Assembly: GCF_028010285.1 (NCBI RefSeq)
Contig: NZ_CP116304.1
Coordinates: forward strand, 1,752,501-1,816,500
Length of the DNA stretch: 64,000 nt
Direction of reading: 5' to 3'
Origin: Pseudomonas sp. Q1-7
Lineage (GTDB): Bacteria > Pseudomonadota > Gammaproteobacteria > Pseudomonadales > Pseudomonadaceae
This document shows positions 45,426-62,023 of the stretch, one piece after another. The number at the start of each line of letters is the position of its first letter. Within the stretch, counting starts at the first letter, position 1. The notes under the pieces are model-generated. The model saw only the letters and a list, made by a program, of their open reading frames with translations. It was not told the origin of the DNA and ran no database searches. A program made the position numbers and the translations under genes.

Positions 45426-47054
45426 GTGCCATTTTTCAACGGGATCCAAGTCCGCATGCCAGATAACCCAAAAGTAGACGACTTCAATAGCTCACCCGCC
45501 TTCTGGCGCTCTCAGGAAATGCTCCTGCTGCAGCAGGTCACGGCGCTGGCGGGCAAGAGTCTGGCCGTGGAGCCGGTGTTCAAGGAGATGCTCCACCTGC
45601 TTTCCGAGCTGTTGGGCCTGAACCGGGGACGGATCGTCCTGCGCGATGACGATGAACGCGGCGGGACCATTCGCTATGCGTACGGTTTGACCAGGGAGGA
45701 GGTGGCGCTTGGTCACTACGCCCTGAATGAAGGGGTGACCGGCAAGGTGCTGGCGCATGGCCAGGTGACGATCGTGCAGGATATCGACAAGGAACCGATC
45801 TTCCTCGGCCGCATGGTCGAGCGCAGCAAGCTGCCGGCAGGACCGGTGTCCTTCATCGCCCTGCCTATCCAGATCGGCCAGAAGACCGTCGGCGTGCTGG
45901 CCTGCCATCGAATCCGCATGCGAGCCAGGCCATTGGCCGACGATCTGACCATCCTGCGCATCCTGGCGACGCTGGCCGGGCAGATGTTGCATCTGCAGAG
46001 TTACATCGAGGAGAAGACCCGCGCGCTGGAACAGCGCAACGACCTGTTGACCAGGGCCCTGCATGCCGATGCGACCCGCTACGGCATCGTCGGGACGTCC
46101 CCCGAACTGCTGCGGGCCATTTCCGAGCTGGAGCGGGTTTCCAGTGCCACCGCCAGCGTGCTGCTTCTCGGCGAGTCCGGCAGCGGCAAGGAGCTGTTCG
46201 CCCGCGCCCTGCACTTGGCCAGTCCACGTTCCGACAAGCCGTTCATCAAGGTCAATTGCGCCGCCATTCCCGACACCCTGTTCGAGTCCGAACTGTTTGG
46301 CTACGAGCGCGGAGCCTTCACGGGGGCCAGTGCGATGCGTGCAGGCTGGTTCGAGCAGGCCGACGGCGGCAGCATTTTCCTCGACGAGATTGGCGAGCTG
46401 CCGCTGGGGATGCAGGCCAAGCTGCTGCGCACCCTGCAGGAGGGCACGATTACGCGCCTGGGCGGCAAGCGGGAGATTCCCGTCGACGTTCGCCTGGTGG
46501 CGGCGACCAACCGTGACCTGGCCATCGAGGTGGCGCGCGGGCAGTTCCGCCAGGATCTCTACTACCGGCTCAATGTCATCCCCATCCATCTCCCGTCCCT
46601 GGCCGAGCGACGTAGCGACATCCCCGCGCTGGCCATGCACTTTCTCAACCGGGTCAACCAGGCCAACCAGCGCAACATCAGCCTGACCGCCGATGCCATC
46701 GAGCGCCTGCAGGCGCACCCCTGGCCGGGCAACATCCGCGAGCTGTCCAACGTGATCGAGCGGGTGGTGCTGCTGGCCGACAAGTCGCCCCTGAGTGCCG
46801 GCGATCTCGAGCCCTTCCTGAGTATTGGCGAGACGGTGGAGGAGGTGCGGGTACAGCCGGTCAGCAGCCGACCGCAGGCAGAGCCATTTATGCTGTCGCT
46901 GCCCGTGCGCCCCTACGCCCCCGCCGGCTCGCACTCCGCGGATGCGTTGCAACAGGCGCTGGTCCAGTGCGGAGGCAACAAGTCGCGTGCCGCGCAACTG
47001 CTCGGTCTGACTCCACGCCAGTTCAACTACCGCTGGCAGAAGCTCGGCCTGTAG
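45426..47054 (+). CDS. sigma-54-dependent enhancer-binding regulator (NifA/CynF-like, GAF-AAA+-HTH)
   Basis: A 542-residue activator of RNA polymerase with sigma-54. A GAF sensor domain (~35-190) is followed by a short coiled segment (~195-212) and the AAA+ domain (~220-450). The AAA+ domain has Walker A GESGSGKE (249-256), the sigma-54-contacting GAFTGA loop (296-301), Walker B GSIFLDEI (315-322) and an Arg-finger region. A Fis-type HTH ends the protein (NKSRAAQLLGLTPRQFNYRWQKLGL). The GTG start at 45426 has AGGA 6 bases upstream; an ATG at 45456 has none. Both downstream operons carry sigma-54 promoters with matching inverted repeats, so it is the obvious activator. CynF of P. pseudoalcaligenes, which controls a cyanase cluster, is of this regulator class. 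Confidence 0.93.
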   Translation: MPFFNGIQVRMPDNPKVDDFNSSPAFWRSQEMLLLQQVTALAGKSLAVEPVFKEMLHLLSELLGLNRGRIVLRDDDERGGTIRYAYGLTREEVALGHYALNEGVTGKVLAHGQVTIVQDIDKEPIFLGRMVERSKLPAGPVSFIALPIQIGQKTVGVLACHRIRMRARPLADDLTILRILATLAGQMLHLQSYIEEKTRALEQRNDLLTRALHADATRYGIVGTSPELLRAISELERVSSATASVLLLGESGSGKELFARALHLASPRSDKPFIKVNCAAIPDTLFESELFGYERGAFTGASAMRAGWFEQADGGSIFLDEIGELPLGMQAKLLRTLQEGTITRLGGKREIPVDVRLVAATNRDLAIEVARGQFRQDLYYRLNVIPIHLPSLAERRSDIPALAMHFLNRVNQANQRNISLTADAIERLQAHPWPGNIRELSNVIERVVLLADKSPLSAGDLEPFLSIGETVEEVRVQPVSSRPQAEPFMLSLPVRPYAPAGSHSADALQQALVQCGGNKSRAAQLLGLTPRQFNYRWQKLGL

Positions 47055-47143
47055 GCCGAAGCACGACCTTGCCCGCGCTTCTCTCCCACAGGGCAGACCA
47101 CGGTCTGCCCTGTGCGTTTGATACCACCGCATCGGCCAGATTG

Positions 47144-47173
47144 GGCGACATTGACATTATTGACAATGTTGCC
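47144..47173 (+). promoter_or_regulatory. inverted-repeat activator site (UAS) for operon 1
   Basis: GGCGACATTG (47144-47153) and CAATGTTGCC (47164-47173) form a 10-bp inverted repeat with one mismatch and a 10-bp spacer. It stands about 110 bp upstream of the -24 element, the usual distance for a sigma-54 enhancer. The core ACATTG...CAATGT recurs upstream of operon 2. Confidence 0.78.
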
Positions 47174-47281
47174 AATTGGTCGTCCGCCGCCTGATGGTCA
47201 GTCGTCGAGAGGGCTGTTCGAATACCTCTCGTCTAATTTCAACTTATTGATTTCATTGTGTTTTATTGGTTTTTCTGCGAA

Positions 47282-47300
47282 TTGGCATACCCCCTGCAAA
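47282..47300 (+). promoter_or_regulatory. sigma-54 (-24/-12) promoter of operon 1
   Basis: TTGGCATACCCCCTGCAAA with GG at 47284-47285 and GC at 47296-47297, exactly 10 bases apart. The surrounding bases match the consensus TGGCAC-N5-TTGCA well. The first gene starts about 60 bp downstream. Confidence 0.9.
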
Positions 47301-47360
47301 AGAGCATTCGACACTCGATGGGGCAGCCCGCCTGCTCCCCAGATACCGCTGGAGAATGCC

Positions 47361-47918
47361 ATGACCGCAGCAACCGAGACTTGCCCGACCACCCTGAAGA
47401 CCTACCTGAAACCGATCGACCGCGAGGGCCTGCTGGCCTTCGCCGAGAAGGGCCGCAACAACCCCGCCAGCCGTGGCACCAACAAGGTCCACACGGTGAT
47501 GCAGGGGATGTACCGCAGCCTGAGCTACGTGGGCGATCACGAAGCGGTCGTGGTCGATGAGCCGCTGCACCTGTTCGGCGAGGACACCGCGCCGGCACCG
47601 GGCGAGATCGTGCTTTCCGGGCTGGGTGGCTGCCTGGCCGTGGGCATCACGGCGGTGGCGACCTGGAAGCAGGTGAAACTGAGCAAGCTGGAAATCTTCC
47701 TCGAGGCCGACATCGGCAACCCGGCGGCGTGGGGCGCCGGTGGTGCGCAGATGCAGCCGGAGCAGATGGGCTTCCAGGCGATCCGCGTGAAGGTGCTGGT
47801 GGAAGGCGACGCGAGCCGCGAGGAACTGGACGAGATCGTCAGGCACGCCAACTTCTACTCGCCGGTGGCCAACACCCTGCGCAACCCGATTCCGTTCAGC
47901 ATCGCGCTGGCCGACTGA
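47361..47918 (+). CDS. OsmC-family protein, copy 1
   Basis: A 185-residue protein of the OsmC/Ohr superfamily. The central helix has LSGLGGCLAVGITAVATW with Cys91, the position of the conserved peroxidatic-type cysteine. At the place of the second family cysteine (CPxxxTL) it has S167 in NFYSPVANTL, so a classical two-cysteine peroxidase cycle seems impossible. A sulfur-transfer, thiol-binding or one-cysteine role is possible. GGAGA stands 6 bases before the ATG. It is the first gene of operon 1, and 536 of its 558 bases are one uninterrupted identity block with the copy at 57136-57693. Confidence 0.9.
   Translation: MTAATETCPTTLKTYLKPIDREGLLAFAEKGRNNPASRGTNKVHTVMQGMYRSLSYVGDHEAVVVDEPLHLFGEDTAPAPGEIVLSGLGGCLAVGITAVATWKQVKLSKLEIFLEADIGNPAAWGAGGAQMQPEQMGFQAIRVKVLVEGDASREELDEIVRHANFYSPVANTLRNPIPFSIALAD
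47370..47905 (+). repeat. 536-bp perfect direct repeat (osmC), left copy
   Basis: By reading both copies base by base I find no difference to 57145-57680. Differences start at codons 2-3 and in the last four codons, and flanking DNA is largely unrelated apart from the promoter core. The copies are 9,775 bp apart in the same orientation. Confidence 0.9.
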
Positions 47919-47933
47919 GCCGCGGAGGACGCC

Positions 47934-49076
47934 ATGAACAGCCTCGCACTTGCAGTACCCTCCGCGGCAGCTGCCTGGACCGACGATGCCCGCGTGCTCG
48001 CCGAGGTCGGCCGCGTCGCCCGCGGCCCGCTGGCGCAGATTGTCAATCGCATCGACCATGAGGGCTATTACCCACTCGACATCATGGCTGCACTCGGCGA
48101 GGCCGGCGCGCTGGGCGTGCATCTCGACAGTCACGGCAGCCGTTACGGGCTGTCGCTGGCGGCCATGCAGGAGATCAGTCGCACCTGCGGTTCGACCGGC
48201 TTCCTCACCTGGTGTCACGACGTCTGCGGCCTGTACATGGAGCAGTCGGGCAACCCGGCGTTGCTGGCCCGGCTGTCCGACCACGCCACCGGGCGGACCT
48301 GCGGCGGTACCGCACTGTCCAACCCGATGAAGTCGCTGGCCGGTATCGAGAACATGCTGCTGCGCGCCCACAAGGTGCCGGGCGGCTACAGGGTCAGCGG
48401 CTCGCTGCCCTGGGTCAGTCATATCGCCAAGGGGCAGTACTGCGGTGCCATCGCCGCTGTGGAGCGTGACGACGGCAGCCGTTCGCACGAGATCATGTTC
48501 CTGCTCGATCTGGACGAGCGCGTCGAGCTCAAGGCCTGTCCGGAGTTCTCCGCCATGGAGGGCACCAGCACCTGGCGCATTCAGCTCGACAACTACTTCG
48601 TCGGCGAGGACTGCATGATCGCTGACCCGGCGCGTCCGTTCATCGCCCGCATCCGCGCCGCTTTCGTGCTGCTCCAGGCCGGCATGGCCACCGGCATCGT
48701 CCAGGGCAGCCTGGACTCGATGCGCGAGGTGGAGCCGGTGCTCGGCCACGTCAACCGTTTCCTGCACGACCGCCCGGACGAGATCCAGGCCGAGTTCGAG
48801 GAGCTGGGGGGGCGGATCATGACGCTGGCGCAAACCCCGTTCGACGGCAGTACCGACTTCCTGCTGGATGTCCTCGACGCACGCACCCAGAGCGCCGAGC
48901 TGGCGCTGCGTGCCTCGCAATCCGCGCTGCTGCACCAGGGCGCGCGAGGCTACCTGAAGAGTGCGGCACCGCAGCGGCGTATTCGCGAGGCCCAGTTCGT
49001 GGCCATCGTCACCCCGGCGATCAAGCACCTGCGTTGGGAGATGGCGCGCCTGATGAAAGAGGAGATGCCGGCATGA
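47934..49076 (+). CDS. acyl-CoA dehydrogenase-fold flavoprotein (possible monooxygenase/desulfurising enzyme)
   Basis: A 380-residue protein with the acyl-CoA dehydrogenase fold: helical N domain (~20-110), beta domain ([11 protein letters not shown]... [21 protein letters not shown]... [16 protein letters not shown], ~120-225) and helical C domain (~230-380). The end reads [40 protein letters not shown], without the usual YEGTxxIQ segment of true dehydrogenases. Members of this fold that lack it, such as SfnB- and DszC-like proteins, act in organosulfur metabolism. A 4-base overlap with the rubredoxin-reductase gene suggests a joint electron chain. The substrate is unknown. Confidence 0.85.
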
Positions 49077-50407
49077 GCGACGCGACCCGAGCCTGGCGGC
49101 AGTTCATCTGCCGCGCCTGTGGGCTGATCTATGACGAGGAAATGGGTGATCCGGACAGCGGCCTGGCGCCCGGCACCCGCTTCGAAGACATCCCCGACGA
49201 CTGGGAGTGCCCGCTGTGCGGGGTGACCAAGCTCGACTTCGAGCCCTTCGTCAGGCGCGAGGCCGCGCCATCCTGTGTGGTGCAGGGCGCACAGCAGGGC
49301 AGGGGCGTGGTGGTGGTGGGCGCCGGCCTTGCCGGCTGGGCCACCGTCGAAGCCCTGCGTGCGCTGGACGCCGCGGTGCCGATCACCCTGGTCAGCGCCT
49401 GCAAGGGCGACCTCTACCACAAGCCGGAACTGTCGGTGGCCCTGAGTCGCGGCCAGACGCCCGAGTCACTGGTTCGCGAGACGGCGGCCGACGCCGCCCG
49501 TCGCCTGGGCGTGCGTCTGTTGACCGACACCTTCGTGGTCGGCCTGACGCCGGCGCAGCACCAGGTACGCACGACCCAAGGCACGCTGACCTACACCCGG
49601 CTGGTGCTGGCCCAGGGCGCGCGCCCGGTACTGCCCGCCGAGCTGCCGCCGGCGTTGTGCTGGCGGGTGAACCACCTGAGTGGCTGGAGCGGTCTGCAGG
49701 CACAACTGCGCCAGGGGTCGCAGCGGGTCGCCATCGTCGGCGCCGGCATGGTCGGTTGCGAGCTGGCCGAGGACTTCGCCCGCGCCGGGCATCAGGTGAC
49801 CCTGGTGGATCGCCAGCACCTTCCGCTGGCGGGCCTGCTGCCCGAGCCCGCGGCGCGTCGGCTGCGGCGGAGTCAGCAGCAACTGGGTATCGGCTATCTC
49901 GGGGCCGTGCAGGTTGCCGGCGTCAGTGGCCTGGATGACGGCAGCAAGTGCATCGCCACAACGTGCGGGCAGCACCTGGTCGTCGACCAGGTGATCGCTG
50001 CCACCGGCCTGGCGACCGATGCCCGTCTGGCGCGGATGGGCGGGCTGGATTTCGACAGGGGCATCCAGGTCGATCCTGGCACCCTGCAGACCAGCGCCGC
50101 GGATGTCTACGCGCTGGGTGACTGCGTGAGCCTGGAGGGCACCGCCTGCCGGTTCATCGAACCCATCGCTCACCAGGCCAGGGCGATTGCCCATGCCGTT
50201 CTGGGCCTGGCCGGGGAGCGTTACCGGCACAGCCAGCCGGTGATCCGTCTGAAGACCCGCTCCCTGCCGATCGAAATGCATGGCACGCCTTGTGCTGCGG
50301 GCCAGTGGCGGGTGGTGCACGAAGACGACAGTTATCTGCTCATGGAACAACAGGTCGATGGGCGTACCGCTTCAACCTTGCGTGTGGGCCAGGCCAAGGC
50401 CGCCTGA
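49073..50407 (+). CDS. rubredoxin / FAD-dependent rubredoxin reductase fusion
   Basis: A 444-residue fusion. Residues 10-58 are a rubredoxin with iron ligands C13, C16, C46 and C49 ([12 protein letters not shown] and [10 protein letters not shown]). The rest is a NAD(P)H:rubredoxin reductase-like flavoprotein with FAD motif GAGLAG (83-88), a second dinucleotide motif [28 protein letters not shown] near residue 220 and the FAD-closing VYALGDC near residue 346. In Pseudomonas these are normally separate proteins serving alkane hydroxylase. Here the fusion overlaps the flavoprotein gene by 4 bases and would feed electrons from NAD(P)H to it or to another oxygenase. The ATG at 49073 lies in the ATGA overlap. 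Confidence 0.9.
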
Positions 50408-50434: not shown

Positions 50435-51829
50435 ATGACCGACAAGAATTTCTACCGCCCCTATTCGGAGCACAGCAGCCTGTCAGGCTGCACCTGCGGG
50501 GCCCACGGCAGCCAGCAGGAACACGACCTGCAAGTCGAGCGGGAGCGTCTGGCCTGCGGGCGTGACAGTGACAGGCTGTCTCGCGACTTCATTGAGGCCG
50601 CCGCCGTGCGCGCGCTGTTCCCCCAGGATGCCGCCCGGCGCCGCTTCCTCAAGGCGGTGGGCATGGGCACTGCGATGGCCGCCATCGCCAGCGTGCTGCC
50701 GTTGCAGGCGCTGCAGGCAATGGCCGAGGAGCGCGGCCCGCTGGAAAAGAAGGACCTGAAGATCGGCTTCATTCCGATCAACTGCGCTACCCCGCTGATC
50801 ATGGCCGATCCCATGGGCTTCTATCGGGAACAGGGACTCAGCGTCAGCCTGCAGAAGACCGCCGGCTGGGCCCTGGTGCGCGACAATATGCTCAACGGCG
50901 AGCTGGATGCCTCGCACTTCCTGGCCCCCATGCCGCTGGCCATCTCCATGGGCCTGGGGTCCAGCCCGCAACCCATGCGTGTGGCCACCATCCAGAACAC
51001 TAACGGCCAGGCCATCACCCTGGCGCTCAAGCACAAGGACAATCGCGATCCGCGCAACTGGAAGGGCTTCAAGTTCGCCATTCCCTTCGAGTTCTCGATG
51101 CACAATTTCCTGCTGCGCTATTACCTGGCCGAGCACGGCCTCGACCCGGACCGTGACGTGCAACTGCGCGTGACGCCGCCTGCAGAGATGATCGCCAACC
51201 TGCGCGCCGGCAACATCGACGGTTTCTTCGGGCCCGAGCCGTTCAATCAGCGTGCCGTGTACGACGGCATCGCCTTCCTGCATGTGTTGTCCAAGGATAT
51301 CTGGCAGGGGCACCCGTGCTGTTCGTTCGGCACCTCGCAGGCCTTCATCGAGCAGAACCCCAACACATTCGCGGCGCTTTACCGGGCGGTGCTCAACGCG
51401 GCCGCCGCCGCCAACGACCCGGCCAATCTGCCGACGATCGCTCAGGCCATCTCCACGCCGAACTATCTCAACCAGCCGGAGATCGTCGTGCGGCAGGTGC
51501 TCACCGGCCGTTACGCCGATGGTCTGGGCGAGGTCCGGAACGAGCCCGATCGAGCCAAGTTCGACCCGATGCCCTGGTATTCCATGGCGACCTGGATGCT
51601 GATCCAGATGAAGCGCTGGGGCTACGTAAAAGGCGACGTGGACTTCAACGCCCTGGCCGAACAGGTTTTCCTGATGACCGATGCCCGCCGCCACATGGCC
51701 GAGCTGGGCATGAACGAGGCGTCCGCCGAACCGGTGAACGGCTACAAGAGCTTCTCGGTGATGGGCCGCCCGTACGATCCGGCCCAGCCGAAGGCCTATC
51801 TGGACAGCTTCGCGATCAAGCGCGTGTGA
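50435..51829 (+). CDS. ABC transporter substrate-binding protein, NrtA/CmpA/CynA family, Tat-exported
   Basis: A 464-residue periplasmic binding protein of the nitrate/bicarbonate/cyanate/sulfonate class: LKIGFIPINCATPLIMADPMGFYREQGL, a MLNGELDASHFLAPMPLAISMGLG segment, PFEFSMHNFLLRYYL and NIDGFFGPEPFNQRAV. Export is by a twin-arginine signal, R68-R69-R70-F71-L72-K73, followed by a hydrophobic stretch. Unusually, 67 residues precede the signal, including GCTCGAHG (C19, C21). The folded state needed for Tat export suggests cofactor binding or fast folding. Cyanobacterial and pseudomonad cyanate transporters (CynA) belong to this family. It is followed by its permease 10 bp later. Confidence 0.9.
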   Translation: MTDKNFYRPYSEHSSLSGCTCGAHGSQQEHDLQVERERLACGRDSDRLSRDFIEAAAVRALFPQDAARRRFLKAVGMGTAMAAIASVLPLQALQAMAEERGPLEKKDLKIGFIPINCATPLIMADPMGFYREQGLSVSLQKTAGWALVRDNMLNGELDASHFLAPMPLAISMGLGSSPQPMRVATIQNTNGQAITLALKHKDNRDPRNWKGFKFAIPFEFSMHNFLLRYYLAEHGLDPDRDVQLRVTPPAEMIANLRAGNIDGFFGPEPFNQRAVYDGIAFLHVLSKDIWQGHPCCSFGTSQAFIEQNPNTFAALYRAVLNAAAAANDPANLPTIAQAISTPNYLNQPEIVVRQVLTGRYADGLGEVRNEPDRAKFDPMPWYSMATWMLIQMKRWGYVKGDVDFNALAEQVFLMTDARRHMAELGMNEASAEPVNGYKSFSVMGRPYDPAQPKAYLDSFAIKRV

Positions 51830-51839: not shown

Positions 51840-52694
51840 ATGAACAAGTCGATACGACTGAAATCCGCCTTGCTGTCGCTGGTGATGCTGCTGGTGCTGC
51901 TGATGGTCTGGCAGGTGTCGACCCTGCCCGACAAGCAGGTTGCCGCAAGCGCGATGGATGAGGAGTACGCCCTGCTGATGGGGCAGGCCACGAGCGGCGA
52001 GAGCCAGAAGATCAACGGCATGCCTAGCCCGCTGCAGTTCGCCGAACTGGCCTGGGAGCAACTCCGCGATCCCTTCTACGACAACGGACCGAATGACAAG
52101 GGCATCGGTATCCAGTTGGTGCACTCGCTGGGGCGCGTAGGCCTCGGCTACCTGATCGCCGCGCTGGTGGCGATCCCGCTGGGTTTCGTGATCGGCATGT
52201 CGCCACTGCTCTACAAGGCGTTCGATCCGTTCATCCAGGTGCTCAAGCCGATCTCGCCTCTGGCCTGGATGCCGATCGCGTTGTACACCATCAAGGACTC
52301 CACCACCTCGGCGATCTTCGTGATCTTCATCTGCTCGGTCTGGCCGATGCTGATCAACACCGCCTTCGGCGTCGCAGGGGTCCGCAAGGACTGGCTCAAC
52401 GTCGCCCGCACCCTCGAGGTCGGCCCGCTGCGCAAGGCCTTCCAGGTGGTTCTGCCCGCGGCCGCGCCGACCATCATCACCGGCATGCGCATCTCCATGG
52501 GTATCGCCTGGCTGGTGATCGTCGCCGCGGAAATGCTGATCGGCGGTACCGGCATCGGCTACTTCGTGTGGAACGAATGGAACAACCTGTCCCTGGGCAA
52601 CGTGATCTTCGCCGTGCTGATGATCGGCGTGATCGGCATGCTCCTCGATCTCCTCTTCGCCAGCCTGCAAAAGAAGGTGACCTATGTCGAATGA
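51840..52694 (+). CDS. ABC transporter permease (nitrate/cyanate/sulfonate type)
   Basis: A 284-residue inner-membrane permease of the NrtB/SsuC/CynB class with about six helices. A long periplasmic segment follows the first helix (LMVWQVSTLPDKQVAASAMDEEY). The ATPase-contacting EAA-like loop is VRKDWLNVARTLEVGPLRKAFQVVLPAAAPTIITGMRISMGIAWLVIVAAEM. It starts 10 bp after the binding-protein gene and overlaps the ATPase gene by 11 bases. Together the three make one importer. Confidence 0.92.
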   Translation: MNKSIRLKSALLSLVMLLVLLMVWQVSTLPDKQVAASAMDEEYALLMGQATSGESQKINGMPSPLQFAELAWEQLRDPFYDNGPNDKGIGIQLVHSLGRVGLGYLIAALVAIPLGFVIGMSPLLYKAFDPFIQVLKPISPLAWMPIALYTIKDSTTSAIFVIFICSVWPMLINTAFGVAGVRKDWLNVARTLEVGPLRKAFQVVLPAAAPTIITGMRISMGIAWLVIVAAEMLIGGTGIGYFVWNEWNNLSLGNVIFAVLMIGVIGMLLDLLFASLQKKVTYVE

Positions 52695-53607
52695 AGCTCA
52701 CAAGCACGGTGTCCCCTTCATCAAGGTGGAAGGCTTGACCAAGCGTTATCGCGACGATCAGCCGCCGGTGTTCGAGAACATCAACTTCAGCATCCAGCAG
52801 GGCGAGTTCATCTGCATCATCGGCCACTCGGGCTGCGGCAAGAGCACCATCCTCAACGTCATCGCCGGCCTGGAAGAGGCCAGCAGCGGCGGGGTGGTGA
52901 TGGCGGGCAAGGAAATCTCCGGTCCCAGCCTGGACCGTGGCGTGGTGTTCCAGAGCCATGCGCTGCTGCCCTGGCTGAGCGTCGAGCAGAACATCGCCTT
53001 CGCCGTGCGTTCGCGCTATCCGGCCTGGTCGCGCAAGCAGGTGGCCGAGCATGGTGCCCGCTTCCTCGACATGGTCGGCCTCAAGGTCGCGGCGCAGAAG
53101 AAGCCCAGCGAGCTGTCCGGAGGCATGAAGCAGCGCGTCGGCATTGCCCGCGCCTTCGCGGTGGAGCCGAAGATGCTGCTGATGGACGAGCCGTTCGGCG
53201 CGCTGGACGCGCTGACTCGCGGCGTGATCCAGGATGAACTGCTGAAGATCTGTTCGGCGACCCGGCAGACGGTGTTCATGATCACCCATGACGTCGACGA
53301 GGCAATCCTGCTGGCTGACAAGGTCATGCTGATGAGCAATGGACCGCGCGCCCGGGTGGCCGAGATCGTGATCAACACCCTGCCGCGCGAGCGGACCCGC
53401 GAAACCCTGCACCACGATCCGCAGTACTACCGTATCCGCAACCACCTGGTGGACTTTCTGGTGCGCCGCTCCAGGGCCATCCAGCAGGGGGAGACGGATG
53501 CGGAGTCCGGCGGTGAGCCGCTGATCGTCAGGCCCGGACTGGAAGGCGACGAGCCGCCGCCGGGGCCGGATCAACCGCAGACCTCCACGATGCGCATCGT
53601 CGCCTGA
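52684..53607 (+). CDS. ABC transporter ATP-binding protein (nitrate/cyanate/sulfonate type)
   Basis: A 307-residue ATPase of the NrtD/SsuB/CynD class. Walker A GHSGCGKST (~46), Q-loop VVFQSHALLPWLSVEQN, signature ELSGGMKQRVGIARAFA, Walker B MLLMDEPFGALDAL and switch His in FMITHDVDEAILLADKV are all intact. About 50 residues of Pro/Glu-rich tail (GGEPLIVRPGLEGDEPPPGP) extend past the usual end. The gene overlaps the permease gene by 11 bases. Confidence 0.93.
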   Translation: MSNEAHKHGVPFIKVEGLTKRYRDDQPPVFENINFSIQQGEFICIIGHSGCGKSTILNVIAGLEEASSGGVVMAGKEISGPSLDRGVVFQSHALLPWLSVEQNIAFAVRSRYPAWSRKQVAEHGARFLDMVGLKVAAQKKPSELSGGMKQRVGIARAFAVEPKMLLMDEPFGALDALTRGVIQDELLKICSATRQTVFMITHDVDEAILLADKVMLMSNGPRARVAEIVINTLPRERTRETLHHDPQYYRIRNHLVDFLVRRSRAIQQGETDAESGGEPLIVRPGLEGDEPPPGPDQPQTSTMRIVA

Positions 53608-53720: not shown

Positions 53721-54962
53721 ATGCGAGCCAACCCTCTGCTGCTTTGCCCCCTGCTGTTCGCCGCGACTGCGCCAGTCGTGGCCCAGGCCGAAGAACACCT
53801 TGCCAACCTGTTCACCCAGGGCAAGCCGCTGCTCGATCTGCGCTATCGCTACGAGCGCGTCGATCAGGACAACGCCGGCGAGCATGCCGACGCCCAGACC
53901 CTGCGCACCCGCGCCGGCTTCCAGAGCGGCAGCTGGTACGGTTTTTCCGGACTGTTCGAGGTCGACAACGTCAGTCACATCGGCGAGGAGCGTTTCAACG
54001 ATACCCGCAATGGTCGCGTTCAGTACCCGCTGGTTGGCGACCCTGACGGTACGGAAATCAATCAGGCGCTGCTGCGCTACGAGCATGGGCGGGGTAGCGC
54101 GGTGGTCGGCCGCCAGCGCATCGAGCTGGACAACCAGCGCTTCGTCGGTAGCGTCGCCTGGCGGCAGAACGAGCAGACCTACGACGGTGCGCTTGCCCAG
54201 TGGCGGCCGCTCGACGGGCTGACCCTGACCTACGCCTACCTGGACAACGTCAACACCCCGTTCGGTCCCGACGGACAGCATGGCTATCCGACCAACCCGG
54301 CGAACATCGAGGGGCACAGCCAACTGTTCAACCTCGCCTATGCCTGGCGTGCGGAACTGAAGGTCAGCGCCTACAGCTACCTGCTCGGCCTCGACAACCT
54401 GGCGCTGGCGCCGGCCGCGGCACCGGGCAGCCAGTCCAGCCGCACCAGCGGCCTGCGCCTCACCGGCGTGCGCAATGGTTTCAGCTATGCGCTGGAATAT
54501 GCCCGCCAGCGTGATTACGCCGGCAACCCGCTGGCGCTGAACAGCCACTATGTCCTCGGCGAACTGGGTTACCAGTACGGCGGTTACCTGGCCAAGGTCG
54601 GCTACGAGGTGCTTGGCGGGGAGAATGGGCCGGGCAACCGCGCCTTCCAGACCCCGCTGGCGACCAAGCACCTGTTCCAGGGCTGGGCTGACCAGTTCCT
54701 CATCACCCCGGCCGATGGCATCCGCGACCGCTACGTCGGTGGCAGCCTGCCCCTGCTGGGGGGCAGCCTGCAGGTCTGGTACCACGACTTCCGCGCCGAC
54801 CAGGGCGGCGCCCACTACGGCAAGGAGCTGGACCTGGCCTACAGCCGCCCGATCCCCCAGATCAAGAACCTGTCGGCCATGGCCAAGTACGCCCGCTACG
54901 ACGCCGACCAGTTCGGCGTGGATACCGACAAGTTCTGGCTGCAGCTTCAGTACCGCTACTGA
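53721..54962 (+). CDS. outer-membrane beta-barrel channel (alginate-export/porin-like)
   Basis: A 413-residue outer-membrane protein with a Sec signal peptide (cleavage near VAQA-EE, residues 20-24). Alternating amphipathic strands such as LLDLRYRYERVDQDN, EINQALLRYEHGRGSAVVGRQRIEL and LTLTYAYLDNV follow, with a final FWLQLQYRY ending in an aromatic residue, as needed for insertion by the Bam machinery. The early repeat pattern is like alginate_export/OprE-type barrels. Between an importer and sulfur genes it is likely the outer-membrane entry route for the substrate. It starts 113 bp after the ATPase gene. Confidence 0.85.
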   Translation: MRANPLLLCPLLFAATAPVVAQAEEHLANLFTQGKPLLDLRYRYERVDQDNAGEHADAQTLRTRAGFQSGSWYGFSGLFEVDNVSHIGEERFNDTRNGRVQYPLVGDPDGTEINQALLRYEHGRGSAVVGRQRIELDNQRFVGSVAWRQNEQTYDGALAQWRPLDGLTLTYAYLDNVNTPFGPDGQHGYPTNPANIEGHSQLFNLAYAWRAELKVSAYSYLLGLDNLALAPAAAPGSQSSRTSGLRLTGVRNGFSYALEYARQRDYAGNPLALNSHYVLGELGYQYGGYLAKVGYEVLGGENGPGNRAFQTPLATKHLFQGWADQFLITPADGIRDRYVGGSLPLLGGSLQVWYHDFRADQGGAHYGKELDLAYSRPIPQIKNLSAMAKYARYDADQFGVDTDKFWLQLQYRY

Positions 54963-54997: not shown

Positions 54998-55813
54998 ATG
55001 CTGCTGGAAATGCTCTACGGACTGGGCGTGGGCGTTGCACTGGGCCTGACCGGAGGCGGAGGGGTGTTGGCGGTGCCGGCCCTCATGCTCGGGCTGGGTT
55101 ACAGCTTGCCCGAGGCCACGCCGGTGGCACTGATTGCGGTCGGCGCCGCGGCGATGCTCGGCTGCCTGGACGGCTTGCGCCGTGGGTTGGTGCGCTACAA
55201 AGCGGCGCTGCTGATGGCGCTGGGCGGCGCCATCTGCGCCCCGCTGGGACTGCAGCTGGCGCGGACCCTGCCCGTCACGGCGCTGATGCTGCTGTTCTGC
55301 GCCGTGCTGCTACTGATCGCCGCCCGCATGGCTGGCCAGGCGCTGAGCGCACAGGCGCCGGGGGCGCTGCCTGAGACGCTGGGCAGGAACTGCATGATCA
55401 ATGTCGCTACCGGGCGCTTTCGCTGGAACGCGCGCTGCTTCATCAGCTTGTCCGCCATCGGCGGGTTGTCGGGGCTGTGCAGTGGCCTGCTCGGCGTCGG
55501 CGGTGGATTTCTGATCGTTCCTGGCGTGCGCCAGTTCAGCAACCTCGGCATGCACGGCATTGTCGCTACCTCACTGATGGTGATCGCGCTGATCTCGGCC
55601 ACGACCGTGACCGGCTTCCTGTGGACGGGGGGCACGCTGCCCTCCGCAGCCTGGGTGTTCATCGCCGCCGCGGGTGGCGGAATGCTCGGCGGTCGCCTGC
55701 TGTCGCCACGGGTGCCAGCCCGCCACCTGCAGCTGGGTTTTGCCCTGTTGGCCGGCCTGGCCGCGCTGTTGCTGCTGAGCAAGGCCCTCGTACCCCTTCT
55801 GCCGTTTCTCTGA
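54998..55813 (+). CDS. TauE/SafE-family membrane exporter
   Basis: A 271-residue membrane protein with about eight helices and the family's two related halves. GVGVALGLTGGGGVLAVPALMLGLGYSLPEATPVALIAVGAAAMLG (N half) resembles LCSGLLGVGGGFLIVPGVRQFSNLGMHGIVATSLMVIAL (C half). TauE/SafE proteins move sulfite, sulfoacetate or similar anions. In bigR-type operons such an exporter accompanies the persulfide dioxygenase Blh, and here the next gene, 14 bp away, encodes a homologous metallo-hydrolase. Export of sulfite is the likely role. AGGAGG stands 6 bases before the ATG. Confidence 0.88.
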   Translation: MLLEMLYGLGVGVALGLTGGGGVLAVPALMLGLGYSLPEATPVALIAVGAAAMLGCLDGLRRGLVRYKAALLMALGGAICAPLGLQLARTLPVTALMLLFCAVLLLIAARMAGQALSAQAPGALPETLGRNCMINVATGRFRWNARCFISLSAIGGLSGLCSGLLGVGGGFLIVPGVRQFSNLGMHGIVATSLMVIALISATTVTGFLWTGGTLPSAAWVFIAAAGGGMLGGRLLSPRVPARHLQLGFALLAGLAALLLLSKALVPLLPFL

Positions 55814-55827
55814 TCACCGGAGCCTCC

Positions 55828-56691
55828 ATGCCGCCTCATGTGGAAAGCTTTTTCGACGAACCGACCTCGACCTTCAGTCATGTGGTGCACGGTGGGCCGG
55901 GCACGCCCTGCGCCATCATCGATTCGGTGCTCGGCTATGACCCGAAGTCCGGGCGCACCGACACCCGCGCTGCCGATGCCATCCTCGACTACGTGCTCCA
56001 GCAAGGCCTCAGTGTGCAGTGGCTGCTGGAAACCCACGCGCATGCCGACCACCTTTCCGGCGCGGCCTACCTGCGCGAACGCCTGGGCGGGCGGATCGGC
56101 GCCAGCGAGGCCATCCGCCAGGTGCAGCAGGTCTTCCGGGGGATCTACAACCTGCCCGCCGACTATTGCGCGGCCCACGGCCAGTTCGATCACCTGTTCC
56201 AGGCTGACGAGGCGTTCGCCATCGGCGAACTGCGCGCCCGAGCCCTGCACGTCCCTGGCCATACGCCGGCGGACCTGGCGTTCCAGGTGGAGGAGGTGCT
56301 GGTGTTCGTCGGCGACACCCTGTTCCCGCCGGATGTCGGCACCGCCCGCTGCGACTTCCCAGGCGGCTCCGCCAGCCAGCTCTACAACTCGGCTCGTCGC
56401 CTGCTCGCGCTGCCGGGGGAAACCCGCCTTTTCATGTGCCACGACTACCCTCCGCCCGGACGCCAGCCGATCGCCGAGTGCACGGTGGCCGAACAGCGCG
56501 CCACGAACCTCCACGTGCGTGATGGCGTGGGCGAGGGCGACTTCGTCGCCATGCGCCGCCAGCGCGATGCCCAGCTCGACATGCCCAACCTGCTGTTGCC
56601 GTCGATCCAGGTGAACATCCGCGCCGGTGTACTGCCGGAGCCGGAGGGCAATGGGGTGCGGTATATGAAGATGCCGATTGATGGCCTCTGA
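55828..56691 (+). CDS. metallo-beta-lactamase-fold protein, persulfide dioxygenase-like
   Basis: A 287-residue metallo-hydrolase of the ETHE1/Blh group. Metal ligands are H70-A-H72-A-D74-H75 in LLETHAHADHLSGAAYL, the His of HVPGHTPADL (~145), the Asp of VFVGDTLFPPDVGTAR (~166) and the His of MCHDYPPPGR (~208). This is the mononuclear-iron pattern that oxidises glutathione persulfide to sulfite and glutathione. The C-terminal half has NLLLPSIQVNIRAG, typical of the Blh/DUF2892-linked branch. Together with TauE it suggests that reduced sulfur arises from the substrate and is removed as sulfite. It ends operon 1. Confidence 0.88.
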   Translation: MPPHVESFFDEPTSTFSHVVHGGPGTPCAIIDSVLGYDPKSGRTDTRAADAILDYVLQQGLSVQWLLETHAHADHLSGAAYLRERLGGRIGASEAIRQVQQVFRGIYNLPADYCAAHGQFDHLFQADEAFAIGELRARALHVPGHTPADLAFQVEEVLVFVGDTLFPPDVGTARCDFPGGSASQLYNSARRLLALPGETRLFMCHDYPPPGRQPIAECTVAEQRATNLHVRDGVGEGDFVAMRRQRDAQLDMPNLLLPSIQVNIRAGVLPEPEGNGVRYMKMPIDGL

Positions 56692-56913: not shown

Positions 56914-56950
56914 CACCGGACATTGTCGACATTGTCTTCAATGTCCGGTG
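56914..56950 (+). promoter_or_regulatory. inverted-repeat activator site (UAS) for operon 2
   Basis: CACCGGACATTG (56914-56925) and CAATGTCCGGTG (56939-56950) are a perfect 12-bp inverted repeat around a 13-bp spacer that holds a further ACATTG (56929-56934). The core is shared with the site at 47144-47173, and the distance to the -24 element (about 110 bp) is the same. Confidence 0.82.
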
Positions 56951-57058
56951 CTGGCCCAGGGCGCCGCTTGCTGGGCAATGGGCTGCGTATGGCCTTTGAA
57001 AATTGTAAGAGACTGATTGTAAAGGATTAATTTTCGTGTCGTGGCGGGTTGGTGTGGG

Positions 57059-57077
57059 TTGGCACACTCGCTGCAAA
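57059..57077 (+). promoter_or_regulatory. sigma-54 (-24/-12) promoter of operon 2
   Basis: TTGGCACACTCGCTGCAAA with GG at 57061-57062 and GC at 57073-57074, exactly 10 bases apart. TGGCAC is a perfect -24 element. The transcript-start region shares CTGCAAAAGAGCAT with the promoter of operon 1. Confidence 0.92.
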
Positions 57078-57135
57078 AGAGCATACGAGTCCAAACGAGC
57101 CGTCACTGCTCGATCAACACCCGATGGAGAATGCC

Positions 57136-57693
57136 ATGTCTGCTGCAACCGAGACTTGCCCGACCACCCTGAAGACCTACCTGAAACCGATCGACCGCGA
57201 GGGCCTGCTGGCCTTCGCCGAGAAGGGCCGCAACAACCCCGCCAGCCGTGGCACCAACAAGGTCCACACGGTGATGCAGGGGATGTACCGCAGCCTGAGC
57301 TACGTGGGCGATCACGAAGCGGTCGTGGTCGATGAGCCGCTGCACCTGTTCGGCGAGGACACCGCGCCGGCACCGGGCGAGATCGTGCTTTCCGGGCTGG
57401 GTGGCTGCCTGGCCGTGGGCATCACGGCGGTGGCGACCTGGAAGCAGGTGAAACTGAGCAAGCTGGAAATCTTCCTCGAGGCCGACATCGGCAACCCGGC
57501 GGCGTGGGGCGCCGGTGGTGCGCAGATGCAGCCGGAGCAGATGGGCTTCCAGGCGATCCGCGTGAAGGTGCTGGTGGAAGGCGACGCGAGCCGCGAGGAA
57601 CTGGACGAGATCGTCAGGCACGCCAACTTCTACTCGCCGGTGGCCAACACCCTGCGCAACCCGATTCCGTTCAGCATCGCCCTGGCTGACTGA
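57136..57693 (+). CDS. OsmC-family protein, copy 2
   Basis: A 185-residue OsmC-family protein differing from copy 1 only in residue 2 (Ser instead of Thr). It has the same features: Cys91 in GLGGCLAVG and Ser167 where most relatives have the second cysteine. The ATG at 57136 has GGAGA 6 bases upstream. It opens operon 2, which continues with cyanase and rhodanese. Why both sigma-54 operons need the same protein first is unclear; a function needed early and in quantity is one explanation, gene conversion keeping the copies equal is another aspect. Confidence 0.9.
   Translation: MSAATETCPTTLKTYLKPIDREGLLAFAEKGRNNPASRGTNKVHTVMQGMYRSLSYVGDHEAVVVDEPLHLFGEDTAPAPGEIVLSGLGGCLAVGITAVATWKQVKLSKLEIFLEADIGNPAAWGAGGAQMQPEQMGFQAIRVKVLVEGDASREELDEIVRHANFYSPVANTLRNPIPFSIALAD
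57145..57680 (+). repeat. 536-bp perfect direct repeat (osmC), right copy
   Basis: Identical to 47370-47905. Recombination between the copies would delete or duplicate a 9,775-bp unit holding the flavoprotein, transporter, porin, TauE and metallo-hydrolase genes while leaving one intact osmC. Confidence 0.9.
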
Positions 57694-57777
57694 GCCGGCC
57701 TGCTGCCTTGCCAATCACTTCTGCTGGCAGCTGTCATCCCGCGCTGTCCGCATGCCTAACCGAATGAGGAACGCATC

Positions 57778-58227
57778 ATGATTTCCAGCCGTGAAGACGT
57801 GACCAAAATGATCCTGGCCGCCAAGGTCAGCAAAGGCCTGAAATGGGGGCATGTCGCCGAAACCATCGGCCTGTCCAAGGAGTGGACCACCGCCGGCTGC
57901 CTGGGTCAGATGACCTTCGACAAGGCCCAGGCGGAAACCCTCGGCAAGCTGTTCGATCTGCCTGATGAGGCGGTGGCCTGGCTGCAGATCGTGCCGTACA
58001 AGGGCTCGCTGCCGAGCGCCGTGCCCTCCGATCCGCTGATCTATCGCTGGTACGAGATCGTCAGTGTCTACGGCACCACCATCAAGGAGCTGATCCACGA
58101 GGAGTTCGGTGACGGCATCATGAGCGCCATCGACTTCTCGATGGACATCCAGCGTCAGGCCGACCCCAAGGGGGACCGCGTCAACGTGGTGCTGTCCGGC
58201 AAGTTCCTGCCCTACAAGAGCTACTGA
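57778..58227 (+). CDS. cynS: cyanase (cyanate hydratase)
   Basis: CynS converts cyanate and bicarbonate to ammonia and two CO2 (through carbamate). The 149-residue protein is homodecameric in E. coli. It has the N-terminal helical domain (KGLKWGHVAETIGLSKEWTTAGCLGQMTF) and the catalytic C-terminal domain IYRWYEIVSVYGTTIKELIHEEFGDGIMSAIDFSM. The active-site residues are R90, E93 and S116 (R96, E99, S122 in E. coli, constant offset 6). It lies 84 bp after osmC copy 2 and 67 bp before the rhodanese gene. It shows that the cluster makes or imports cyanate. Confidence 0.97.
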   Translation: MISSREDVTKMILAAKVSKGLKWGHVAETIGLSKEWTTAGCLGQMTFDKAQAETLGKLFDLPDEAVAWLQIVPYKGSLPSAVPSDPLIYRWYEIVSVYGTTIKELIHEEFGDGIMSAIDFSMDIQRQADPKGDRVNVVLSGKFLPYKSY

Positions 58228-58294
58228 TTCAGGCGCCAGCCTCCACTCCCGGCCAGCTGCGGCTGGCCGGCCCCGATCAGACGAGGATGGAATC

Positions 58295-59176
58295 ATGGAC
58301 AATCAGCTCCTTTTCAGGCCCGAAGAAGTCGCAGCCCTCATTCAGGCCGGCCAGGCCATAGTGGTCGACATCCGTGACCGCGAGAGCTACCAGGCCGGAC
58401 ACATCAGTGGCGCAGTCAATGCGCCGGACGTTTTCTCCTACCTGGCGGAAACCAGCCCCGAGGGTCTGCAAGCCTTGCAGGCGCAGTTCGCCGAGGTGTT
58501 CGGCAAGGTCGGGCTCGATGGCCAGAAGGTGGCCATCGTCTACGAGGATGCACTGAATACCCGCTACGGCGGCTCCTGCCGAGGTCTCTGGCTGCTGCAG
58601 TACCTGGGGTATCCAAAGGTCGGCATTCTCGATGGCGGCCTGCGGGCCTGGCAGGCGTTCGGCGGCACGGTCGACACCGCCGCGGTCACGCCGGACTCGG
58701 TCAGCTTCCCGCTGCGACCGCGTGCCGAGCTGCTGGTGACCAAGGAGCAGATGCTCGCGGCTCTGGCCGATCCCGCGATCAAGTTGCTCGACAACCGCGA
58801 CAAGGATGAGTGGCTGGCCGAGAGTTCGTCTCCTTACGGCAAGGATTTCGCGCCGCGCAAGGGCCGCATCCCCGGTGCGGTTTGGCTGGAGTGGTACGAG
58901 CTGATGGACACCAGCCAGCCGATCGCGGCGTTCAAGTCCGCCGAGCAGGTCCGTGCCCTGGCGACCGAGCGGGGGCTGAGGCCCGACGATGACATCATCA
59001 TCTACTGCTTCAAGGGCGCGCGGGCAGCCAACACCTTCGTCGCCATGCAACTGGCGGGGTTCACCCGCTTGCGCATCTACCTCGGTTCCTGGAACGAGTG
59101 GTCGCGGGACGAAAGCCTGCCCATCGAAAGCGGCCTTCCGAAGGGTGCGGTGCGCATGTTGCCCCTGGCAGGCTGA
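58295..59176 (+). CDS. tandem-domain rhodanese (sulfurtransferase)
   Basis: A 293-residue thiosulfate/mercaptopyruvate sulfurtransferase with two rhodanese domains. The N domain (~5-125; AIVVDIRDRESYQAGHISGAVNAP) is inactive-like. The C domain (~145-280) has the catalytic Cys238 in IIIYCFKGARAANTFVAMQLAG. The loop CFKGAR is close to the CRKGVT loop of thiosulfate-type enzymes rather than the CGSGVT of mercaptopyruvate enzymes. It could move sulfane sulfur between cyanide, thiosulfate, persulfide and sulfite. It follows cynS in the same sigma-54 operon. Confidence 0.92.
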   Translation: MDNQLLFRPEEVAALIQAGQAIVVDIRDRESYQAGHISGAVNAPDVFSYLAETSPEGLQALQAQFAEVFGKVGLDGQKVAIVYEDALNTRYGGSCRGLWLLQYLGYPKVGILDGGLRAWQAFGGTVDTAAVTPDSVSFPLRPRAELLVTKEQMLAALADPAIKLLDNRDKDEWLAESSSPYGKDFAPRKGRIPGAVWLEWYELMDTSQPIAAFKSAEQVRALATERGLRPDDDIIIYCFKGARAANTFVAMQLAGFTRLRIYLGSWNEWSRDESLPIESGLPKGAVRMLPLAG

Positions 59177-59669: not shown

Positions 59670-61157
59670 ATGCTTCAGACAATCAAACAGAACTGGTTTT
59701 CCAATATCCGTGGCGATGTGCTCGCCGGACTGGTGGTGGCACTCGCCCTGATACCGGAGGCGATCGCCTTTTCGATCATCGCCGGGGTCGATCCCAAGGT
59801 GGGGCTGTACGCGTCCTTCTGCATCGCGGTGGTGATCGCGTTCGTGGGCGGACGTCCGGGAATGATTTCCGCCGCCACCGGGGCCATGGCCCTGCTGATG
59901 CTCACCCTGGTGAAGAATCACGGGCTCGAGTACCTGCTGGCGGCGACGTTGCTGTGCGGCGTGTTCCAGATCGTCGCCGGCTACCTCAAGCTCGGTTCGC
60001 TGATGCGCTTCGTCTCGCGGTCGGTGGTGACCGGATTCGTCAATGCGCTGGCGATCCTGATCTTCATGGCCCAGCTACCGGAACTGACCAACGTCACCTG
60101 GCACGTCTATGCGATGACCGCGGCGGGTCTCGGGATCATTTACCTGTTCCCCTACGTGCCGAAACTGGGCAAGGTCATTCCCTCGCCGCTGGTGTGCATT
60201 CTGCTGCTGACCGCCATCTCCATCTATCTGGGGCTGGATATCCGTACCGTGGGCGACATGGGGCAGTTGCCGGACACGTTGCCGGTGTTCCTCTGGCCCG
60301 ACGTTCCGCTGACCTTCGAGACGCTGGCCATCATCTTCCCTTACTCGGCCGCCCTGGCGGTCGTGGGGCTGCTGGAGTCGATGATGACGGCCACCATCGT
60401 CGACGACCTGACGGATACGACCAGCGACAAGAACCGCGAGTGCAAGGGCCAGGGGGTTGCCAACATCGCCGCGGGCCTGATGGGGGGCATGGCCGGTTGC
60501 GCCATGATCGGCCAGTCGGTGATCAACGTGAAATCGGGCGGACGTACCCGTCTGTCCTGCCTGGTCGCCGGTGTGGTGTTGCTGTTGATGGTGGTGTTCC
60601 TCAGCGACTGGGTGCGCCAGATTCCGATGGCGGCCCTGGTCGCCGTGATGATCATGGTGTCCATCGGTACGTTCAGCTGGGACTCCGTGCGCAACCTGGG
60701 CAAATTCCCCCTGTCGACCAATATCGTGATGGTGGCGACAGTCGTGGTCGTCGTCTTCACCCATAACCTGGCCTACGGCGTGCTGGTCGGCGTGTTGCTG
60801 GCCGCCCTGTTCTTCGCCAACAAGGTGGGGCATTACCTGGATATCGGTTCCGAACTCGATGGCGCGGGTGAGCACCGCACGTACAAGGTCGTCGGGCAGG
60901 TGTTCTTCAGCTCGGCGGAGAAATTCGCGGCCGCGTTCGATTTCAAGGAAGCACTGAGCAAAGTCACCATCGACCTCAGCCGCGCCCACTTCTGGGACAT
61001 CACCGCGGTCGCCGCGCTGGACAAGGTGGTGATCAAGCTGCGCCGCGAGGGCGTGGATGTCGAGGTGCTGGGGCTCAACCAGGCCAGTGCCACCATCGTT
61101 GACCGCTTCGGTGTGCACGACAAACCGGATTCCATTGACTCGCTCATGGGCCACTGA
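59670..61157 (+). CDS. SulP-family anion transporter with STAS domain
   Basis: A 495-residue inner-membrane transporter with 10-12 helices followed by a C-terminal STAS domain (~390-490; [39 protein letters not shown]). The start [45 protein letters not shown] is the family signature. SulP members carry sulfate, bicarbonate (BicA type) or dicarboxylates. Next to cyanase, which consumes bicarbonate, a bicarbonate importer is as plausible as a sulfate transporter for the sulfur side. I start at ATG 59670 since upstream sequence has no similarity; its ribosome site is weak. It is 14 bp ahead of the stress-protein gene. Confidence 0.9.
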
Positions 61158-61171
61158 AAGGGAGAACGACC

Positions 61172-62023
61172 ATGACCCACGTAATCGCTTGCATCGACGG
61201 TTCCACGTCCTCTCCGGCGCTGTGTGACTACGCCGCCTGGGCGAGCCTGCGTCTCGGCGCACCGCTGACGTTCCTGCACGTCCTGGATCAGCGGCAGTAT
61301 CCGACCCGGACGGATCTCAGCGGCAACATCGGGCTGGGCAGCCGCGAACACCTCCTGGAGGAGCTGGCCGCACTCGATCAGCAACGCAGCAAGCTGGCCC
61401 TGGAGGAGGGGCGCATCATGCTCGCGGCGGCCAAGGAGCGCGCCCTGGCCGACGGTGTTGCGAATCCCGAGTCGAGGCAGCGTCATGGCGACCTGCTGGA
61501 CAGCCTGCGGGAGCTGGAAGGGCAGACCCGCCTGCTGGTGATAGGTAAGGGCGGGGAAGCCCATGGCGGTTCAGGGCGCCACGTTGGCAGCCATGTGGAA
61601 ACGGTGGTTCGCACCCTGCACCGACCCATTCTGGTGACCCCGACGACCTTCAAGGCGCCAGAGAGCCTGATGCTGGCCTTCGACGGCAGCGCGACCACCC
61701 GCAAGGGCGTCGACATGCTGGCTGCCAGCCCGCTGTTCAAAGGGCTGCCCATCCACCTCGTGACAATCGGTTCGGACACCGCCGACACGCGTGCGCAACT
61801 GGATTCGGCCCGTACGGTTCTGCAGGCCGCCGGATTCGCTGTGAGCACGGCGGTCCGCGCTGGCGAGGTGGAGCCTTCTCTGCATGCCTACCAGGCCGAA
61901 CACGCTATCGACCTGGTGGTGATGGGGGCTTACGGTCACTCGCGCATTCGCCAGTTCCTGGTGGGCAGCACCACGGCGAACATGCTGGCGACCAGCGTCA
62001 CCCCCCTGTTGCTGTTGCGTTGA
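61172..62023 (+). CDS. tandem universal stress protein (UspA family)
   Basis: A 283-residue protein of two UspA domains. Domain 1 (~1-152: MTHVIACIDGSTSSPALCDYAAW) has a changed nucleotide loop (GKGGEAHGGSGRHVGSHVETVV). Domain 2 (~160-283: LMLAFDGSATTRKGVDML) has the full ATP-binding pattern GAYGHSRIRQFLVGSTT. Usp genes often pair with SulP transporters and may regulate them; here the gap is 14 bp with GGGAG as ribosome site. It ends the accessory-looking set. Confidence 0.92.
   Translation: MTHVIACIDGSTSSPALCDYAAWASLRLGAPLTFLHVLDQRQYPTRTDLSGNIGLGSREHLLEELAALDQQRSKLALEEGRIMLAAAKERALADGVANPESRQRHGDLLDSLRELEGQTRLLVIGKGGEAHGGSGRHVGSHVETVVRTLHRPILVTPTTFKAPESLMLAFDGSATTRKGVDMLAASPLFKGLPIHLVTIGSDTADTRAQLDSARTVLQAAGFAVSTAVRAGEVEPSLHAYQAEHAIDLVVMGAYGHSRIRQFLVGSTTANMLATSVTPLLLLR

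Follow-up and report, generated by a model that had tools for sequence, protein, structure and literature searches.

A candidate thiocyanate-assimilation cluster with a flavoprotein, a rubredoxin reductase, OsmC proteins and cyanase in Pseudomonas sp. Q1-7

Two primary pathways of thiocyanate degradation, through carbonyl sulfide (COS) and through a copper thiocyanate dehydrogenase (TcDH), are recognised, and both were established in sulfur-oxidising bacteria; for Methylobacterium and other heterotrophs that use thiocyanate, the genes responsible are not named in the accessible parts of the papers concerned (PMC5328954, PMC5744179, PMC5778177). The locus described here lies in a 64,000-nucleotide stretch of Pseudomonas sp. 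Q1-7 (NCBI RefSeq assembly GCF_028010285.1, contig NZ_CP116304.1, positions 1,752,501 to 1,816,500 of the forward strand), called the window below and numbered from its first letter. One sigma-54 activator and two sigma-54-type operons were found at 45426-59176 on the plus strand. Operon 1 encodes, in order, an OsmC protein, a flavoprotein, a rubredoxin/NADH (reduced nicotinamide adenine dinucleotide) reductase, an NrtA/CynA-type ATP-binding cassette (ABC) importer, a porin, a TauE protein and a persulfide dioxygenase; operon 2 encodes a second OsmC protein, cyanase and a rhodanese. All frames were open and carried named domains.

The cynFABDS cluster of Pseudomonas pseudoalcaligenes CECT5344 has in common with this locus a sigma-54 Fis-type activator, a CynABD-type importer, cyanase and a sigma-54-type promoter. 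In the accessible part of its description it stands beside glutamate synthase genes, hemE and an insertion sequence (IS) element and comes without OsmC, flavoprotein, rubredoxin-reductase, persulfide dioxygenase, TauE and rhodanese genes (PMC6627978), whereas the window cluster has all of these; this agrees with a first-pass annotation of the window, which had taken such clusters to lack the flavoprotein, rubredoxin and OsmC genes. The TcDH route of Thioalkalivibrio and Thiohalobacter has a proposed aerobic conversion of thiocyanate to cyanate and zero-valent sulfur, with ABC transporter and sigma-54-type regulator genes nearby, but the known enzyme is a periplasmic copper protein with a cytochrome c acceptor, whereas the window encodes a predicted flavin adenine dinucleotide (FAD) enzyme coupled to NADH via rubredoxin (PMC5744179, as far as accessible). 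No cluster protein was named copper thiocyanate dehydrogenase in scans of general libraries, which may contain no TcDH model. In the COS pathway, thiocyanate hydrolase also frees the nitrogen and sulfur of thiocyanate, but cleaves the C-N bond to give COS and ammonia; this enzyme is described as homologous to the nitrile hydratase family (PMC5744179), and NHase_alpha (PF02979) had no match in the window's genome. No description of a flavoprotein-cyanase module was found in the open-access literature searched, most subscription journals lying outside the search; a query combining several of the module's components brought up one listing, a genome paper on comammox Nitrospira.

The cluster and its conservation are solid. 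At a probability of roughly 0.6 it is a thiocyanate-assimilation module in which thiocyanate would be opened to cyanate and sulfane sulfur, an assignment that draws on converging gene context and on the phenotypes of two species. Thiocyanate would enter via the porin and the importer, and the activator would sense thiocyanate or cyanate and open both operons. The rubredoxin-reductase fusion would hand electrons from NADH to the flavoprotein's FAD; with O2, the flavoprotein may then attack either the sulfur or the carbon of thiocyanate, giving cyanate and a sulfane-level sulfur atom. This sulfur would be accepted, or an oxidised intermediate reduced, by the single conserved OsmC cysteine, a role that in some relatives would fall to an AhpD-like protein. 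Cyanase would convert the cyanate to ammonia and CO2, while the rhodanese and persulfide dioxygenase would carry the sulfur via a thiol persulfide to sulfite, to be exported by TauE. More tentatively, the module may represent a third bacterial thiocyanate route, in which thiocyanate is opened to cyanate by an O2- and NADH-dependent flavoprotein working with its rubredoxin-reductase, or with a rhodanese partner in a sister clade, and the sulfur passes as a persulfide to an OsmC with a single cysteine.

A profile built from 11 flavoproteins matched at least 569 relatives on named bacterial contigs. From these the 80 best were taken, and eight loci from plasmids and further genomes were added; these 88 loci, several of them cut by contig ends, were processed with a custom open reading frame caller and clustering. 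Because the 80 kept loci are the best of at least 569, the window's own clade is over-represented among them. The 88 do not include the distant homologues L036-L039 and L047, the window's own genome (L048), L040 and L041 (the same places as L110 and L096) and L042 (another genome, close to L041). The OsmC-flavoprotein-reductase core recurs across the 88 loci in alpha-, beta- and gammaproteobacteria (Table 1), and the named carriers include Stutzerimonas, Pseudomonas, Marinobacter, Amphritea, Halomonas, Cupriavidus, Pandoraea, Herbaspirillum, Methylobacterium and Acetobacter; the carriers are mostly known as heterotrophs. Four loci are on replicons filed as plasmids. Three of these have cyanase, namely Marinobacter pMAD49a (conjugative), an Acetobacter plasmid (conjugative) and Caballeronia pSBC2-1 (1.99 Mb, mobilizable), and one, Moraxella pNP7-5 (non-mobilizable), is without it.

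Cyanase was in the same locus as the OsmC-flavoprotein-reductase block in 54 of the 88 loci. It was found elsewhere in the genome in 22 of the 25 searched carriers without a local copy, in one of them (L078) by a fragment match only; the 25 were drawn from the 34 loci whose examined stretch shows no cyanase, and L053, which has a local cyanase, was excluded. In a phylum sample of 397 genomes, with the flavoprotein called at E<=1e-40, the flavoprotein was detected in 17, cyanase in 88 and both in 14. With the window's own genome excluded, cyanase was present in 13/16 flavoprotein-positive vs 74/380 negative genomes (Fisher p=4e-7, uncorrected for relatedness, five of the 16 positives being one genus). 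Counted by genus, cyanase was present in 7/10 positive genera other than the window's own vs 56/232 genera overall. The first-pass annotation had proposed a substrate yielding cyanate together with reduced or zero-valent sulfur, best fitted by thiocyanate, and would have given this up had the block been regularly encountered in genomes without cyanase and sulfur genes. The proposal survives that check and is supported, on a comparative basis, by the local and remote cyanase counts and by the recurrence of sulfur genes and the controls that follow.

At least one of the persulfide dioxygenase, TauE and rhodanese genes was present in 33/88 loci. Twenty control loci around cynS were hand-picked from the 74 flavoprotein-negative, cyanase-positive genomes, with flanks of ~8 kb vs 10 kb for the test loci, and neither sulfur genes nor OsmC were detected in any of them (0/20 at E<=1e-8; p=3e-4 for the sulfur genes). 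A chance origin of the sulfur-gene association was rejected on this comparison, and the sulfur genes therefore follow the flavoprotein, not cyanase. The trait (34/89 rows, window included) showed at least 17 state changes on a quick tree of the flavoprotein, so it was gained or lost repeatedly. The TauE family, labelled by direct match to the window's TauE in 11 of its 16 loci, adjoins the persulfide dioxygenase in 14 of them. The nearest solved chain to the persulfide-dioxygenase-like protein was 4ysk (E=9e-104), deposited as a beta-lactamase domain protein, which we take to be a persulfide dioxygenase; the fold and metal ligands of ETHE1/PDO are present, with His/Asp conserved in 25/25 sequences. 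The NCBIfam Blh model, which also spans a sulfurtransferase part, matched below its cut-off. A second persulfide-dioxygenase-like gene, 53% identical to that of the cluster, was seen elsewhere in the window's genome (G000:C1:3332745-3333605).

It is quite improbable that the cluster is one for cyanate assimilation, of the cynABDS type, with unrelated redox and sulfur genes picked up. Its regulator, ABC system and cyanase do match the published cynFABDS plan (PMC6627978), and importer and cyanase occurred without the block in 4/20 control loci, three of these with an activator, but conservation of the block extends over three classes of proteobacteria, and the block is linked both to cyanase and to the sulfur genes.

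The binding protein of the window type, which is common to plain cyanate clusters, was present in 47 loci, 37 of them with cyanase. In 20 other loci its place was held by a distant binding protein (25-29% identical where measured, and also of the NMT1_2 family in the one locus tested, L032), 16 of them with cyanase. As the two importer types interchange in one operon, the substrate is suggested to resemble cyanate. Isothiocyanate, thiocarbamate, thiourea or a similar small compound containing nitrogen and sulfur, oxidised by the flavoprotein with release of cyanate and sulfur, is an unlikely substrate by comparison. The importer is of the nitrate/bicarbonate/cyanate class, and its interchange favours a small inorganic anion; what speaks for other compounds is that the wider flavoprotein-OsmC-ABC family occurs without a nearby cyanase in Rhodobacteraceae, on Methylocystis plasmids and in further genomes, so that its members need not share one substrate. 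Relatives of the distant importer are also found beside members of the flavoprotein family that have no cyanase nearby. On pANL of Synechococcus elongatus (L039), a flavoprotein homologue of 28% identity adjoins an ABC importer and has cysteine synthase and gamma-glutamyltransferase genes nearby, a further point for another nitrogen- and sulfur-containing substrate; these neighbours hint at a wider family for sulfur acquisition. A Cys-Cys motif was found in 68/68 binding proteins including the window's (HPCC in 65, HACC in 3). It was rejected as a thiocyanate-specific site, since HPCC is also present in all four controls with a recognisable CynABD-type binding protein and the motif does not separate thiocyanate from cyanate.

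The flavoprotein gene, as had been noted at first pass, overlaps that of the reductase, by four bases (ATGA, 49073-49076), and the two genes are <=30 nucleotides apart in 81/87 relatives. Acyl-CoA_dh_N was the sole Pfam match of the flavoprotein (E=1.8e-8). Its AlphaFold model (predicted local distance difference test, pLDDT, 91.8) gave a template-modelling (TM) score of ~0.8 to acyl-coenzyme A (acyl-CoA) dehydrogenases, the best solved matches being at ~20% identity. The acyl-CoA-dehydrogenase fold and FAD-site motifs are present, with W160, S162, G336, G339 and Y340, presumably FAD-site residues, invariant in the alignment. In an alignment with 1ws9, T360 falls on the first Glu of that protein's GEGTSE motif, a residue which we take to be the catalytic base of acyl-CoA dehydrogenase, and this Thr is invariant in 67/67 sequences; C85 and C202 are invariant in 89 sequences. 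With Thr360 in place of Glu and both cysteines invariant, an ordinary acyl-CoA dehydrogenase is unlikely. From the reductase partner and weak profile matches to the group D flavin monooxygenases HsaA (2rfq) and XiaF (5lvu), we infer that the flavoprotein is an oxygenase. Among the 50 best fold matches was 3-sulfinopropionyl-CoA desulfinase (5af7, 5ahs), in which the same fold serves sulfur chemistry at ~19% identity to the flavoprotein; that enzyme acts on a CoA thioester, and we know of no rubredoxin-reductase partner gene for it.

OsmC and AhpD-like proteins are thiol peroxidases, and those of the OsmC/Ohr type use two reactive cysteines. In the cluster OsmC the Cys position of 9wo1 is Ser, Cys91 is present in 86/86 aligned copies, and no second column has Cys in more than half. 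The two-cysteine pattern of OsmC/Ohr proteins is thus absent, and with a single conserved Cys91 a classical two-cysteine peroxidase cycle is unlikely. These features make it very improbable that OsmC, flavoprotein and reductase guard against peroxides or hypothiocyanite rather than feed on thiocyanate; the importer and cyanase would also stay unexplained, although an AhpD-like (CMD family) protein, which would suit such protection, takes the OsmC place upstream of the flavoprotein in two loci. These are L135 (7586-9321; a 1.8-Mb genome, its AhpD-like protein with a CxxC motif) and L035 (8166-10104; a Moraxella osloensis plasmid). Both kinds of protein would suit a thiol role in accepting sulfur or in reducing an intermediate. 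The window's two OsmC copies are 99.1% identical in DNA. Copies from P. lopnurensis and S. stutzeri agree with one another at 95-100% identity, but with the window's at only 86-88%; the pair seems to have been homogenised within lineages. An OsmC copy lies at each end of the P. lopnurensis contig, as though the assembly had broken at this repeat.

The rhodanese of operon 2 has an orthologue of 84% identity adjoining cynS in S. kunmingensis. No close orthologue was found in S. stutzeri and P. lopnurensis, where the best matches were 28-34% identical over most of the protein, and the rhodanese is therefore not essential. In a sister clade, with flavoproteins of 37-44% identity, a rhodanese stands beside the flavoprotein in eight fetched loci, each with OsmC, and is 46-51% identical to that of the window; cyanase is in the same stretch in 5/8. 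Two of the eight (L036, L131) retain a distant reductase match of 29%, so the rhodanese does not always replace the reductase. Among the 10 genomes fetched from the 12 of a second clade in the phylum sample, the rhodanese adjoins the flavoprotein in six and is absent in four, three of which are also without cyanase.

Rhodanese also bears on the main named rival after other thio compounds, namely that the flavoprotein is a cyanide monooxygenase converting cyanide to cyanate while rhodanese and persulfide dioxygenase detoxify cyanide and sulfide. Such a monooxygenase feeding cyanase has been proposed, though not demonstrated (PMC11049912, as far as accessible), and rhodanese is described as converting cyanide to thiocyanate (accessible part of PMC5778177). 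This reading is nonetheless improbable, as hydrogen cyanide should need no ABC importer and the persulfide dioxygenase and TauE would imply release of sulfur, not its use.

The carriers of the module include Methylorubrum thiocyanatum and Stutzerimonas stutzeri. The former is reported to use thiocyanate or cyanate as nitrogen source (Wood et al. 1998, cited in PMC5328954) and for a strain of Pseudomonas stutzeri, use of the cyanate route is reported at second hand (PMC9055349), both according to the accessible parts of these sources; the sequenced strains need not be those tested for the phenotype. Several observations weigh against thiocyanate assimilation. An NHase_alpha protein is present in M. 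thiocyanatum as well, so the phenotype of this species may have a source other than the flavoprotein-cyanase module. Cyanase was not detected in 3/17 flavoprotein-positive genomes of the phylum sample, in 3/25 of the carriers searched (the fragment in L078 making a fourth doubtful case) or in the stretch of 3/8 rhodanese-paired sister loci. A beta-proteobacterial group, mostly metagenome-assembled (L071, L073, L075, L076, L078, L079, L082, L084, L086, L087, L088, L128), has the core beside other catabolic genes and no cyanase in the locus, the cyanase of L071, L073 and others lying elsewhere; the neighbours, labelled by eye, are variously malate/lactate-dehydrogenase-like, beta-lactamase-like, cupin and isocitrate-dehydrogenase-like genes. 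All three sulfur genes were missing from 55/88 loci, some of them cut by contig ends, and the Cys-Cys motif of the binding protein is shared with plain cyanate importers.

Were thiocyanate the substrate, this could be a main thiocyanate-assimilation system of heterotrophic proteobacteria in soil, in the sea and on plants, and the acyl-CoA-dehydrogenase fold and OsmC would have been put to new use in small-anion sulfur chemistry. The module is a concrete candidate gene set for thiocyanate use by heterotrophs, in named and culturable strains. It could account for the use of thiocyanate, a pollutant, as a nutrient by common bacteria of soil and sea, and would then bear on the bioremediation of mining and coking effluents.

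Table 1. Features of the cluster, in window positions, with the number of the 88 loci that hold each gene.
Feature	Position	Strand	Loci (of 88)	Basis
Sigma-54 activator (GAF, Sigma54_activat AAA+, HTH_8 Fis; CynF/NifA-like), cluster regulator	45426..47054	+	65	domain matches
Imperfect GACATT..AATGTT element, candidate activator site	47147..47170	+		degenerate copy, scores below the palindrome pattern
Sigma-54-type promoter, operon 1	47283..47298	+		motif match
OsmC-1, single invariant Cys91	47361..47918	+	83 (OsmC)	domain match, alignment
Acyl-CoA-dehydrogenase-fold flavoprotein, usual catalytic Glu absent; proposed thiocyanate-opening enzyme	47934..49076	+		domain match, alignment, model
Rubredoxin fused to NorW-like NADH:rubredoxin reductase	49073..50407	+	87	domain matches
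NMT1_2, NrtA/CynA-type substrate-binding protein, twin-arginine (TAT)-type signal	50435..51829	+	67	domain matches
ABC permease, NtrB family	51840..52694	+	64	family match above curated cut-off
ABC ATPase, NtrCD family	52684..53607	+	62	family match above curated cut-off
Outer-membrane channel (porin), Alginate_exp family	53721..54962	+	7	domain match
TauE/SafE family exporter (predicted)	54998..55813	+	16 (family cluster)	domain match
Persulfide-dioxygenase-like protein, metallo-beta-lactamase fold	55828..56691	+	24	structure-chain match, conserved residues
Palindromic GACATTGTC-type element, candidate activator site, operon 2	56919..56945	+		motif match
Sigma-54-type promoter, operon 2	57060..57075	+		motif match
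OsmC-2	57136..57693	+		553/558 bases identical to OsmC-1
Cyanase CynS	57778..58227	+	54	domain matches; sole cyanase found in the genome
Two-domain rhodanese/3-mercaptopyruvate-sulfurtransferase-like protein	58295..59176	+	11	domain matches; orthologue in S. kunmingensis

The first-pass annotation had given the cluster a sigma-54 regulator and two sigma-54 operons, in agreement with the activator domains found and with a promoter-type site before each OsmC copy. In relatives, a sigma-54-type site stands upstream of 69/84 OsmC copies vs 2.3 expected in base-shuffled sequence. A GACA(T/A)TGTC-type palindrome was found farther upstream in 29/84 vs 0.55 expected from shuffles, the shuffles in both counts being of single bases and the palindrome pattern itself derived from the window.

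Every gene proposed at first pass was open and had a named domain. The span then given, 45426..62023, holds for 45426-59176; the SulP and universal stress genes at 59529-62023 are probably unlinked and were dropped as members of the system. This rests on SulP, which lies on contigs other than that of cynS in two relatives: contig C58 of S. kunmingensis has cynS next to the rhodanese gene, with the SulP orthologues on C80 and C49, and P. lopnurensis has cynS on C57 but SulP on C61. Two records of Neisseria gonorrhoeae contain a flavoprotein homologue of 39% identity.

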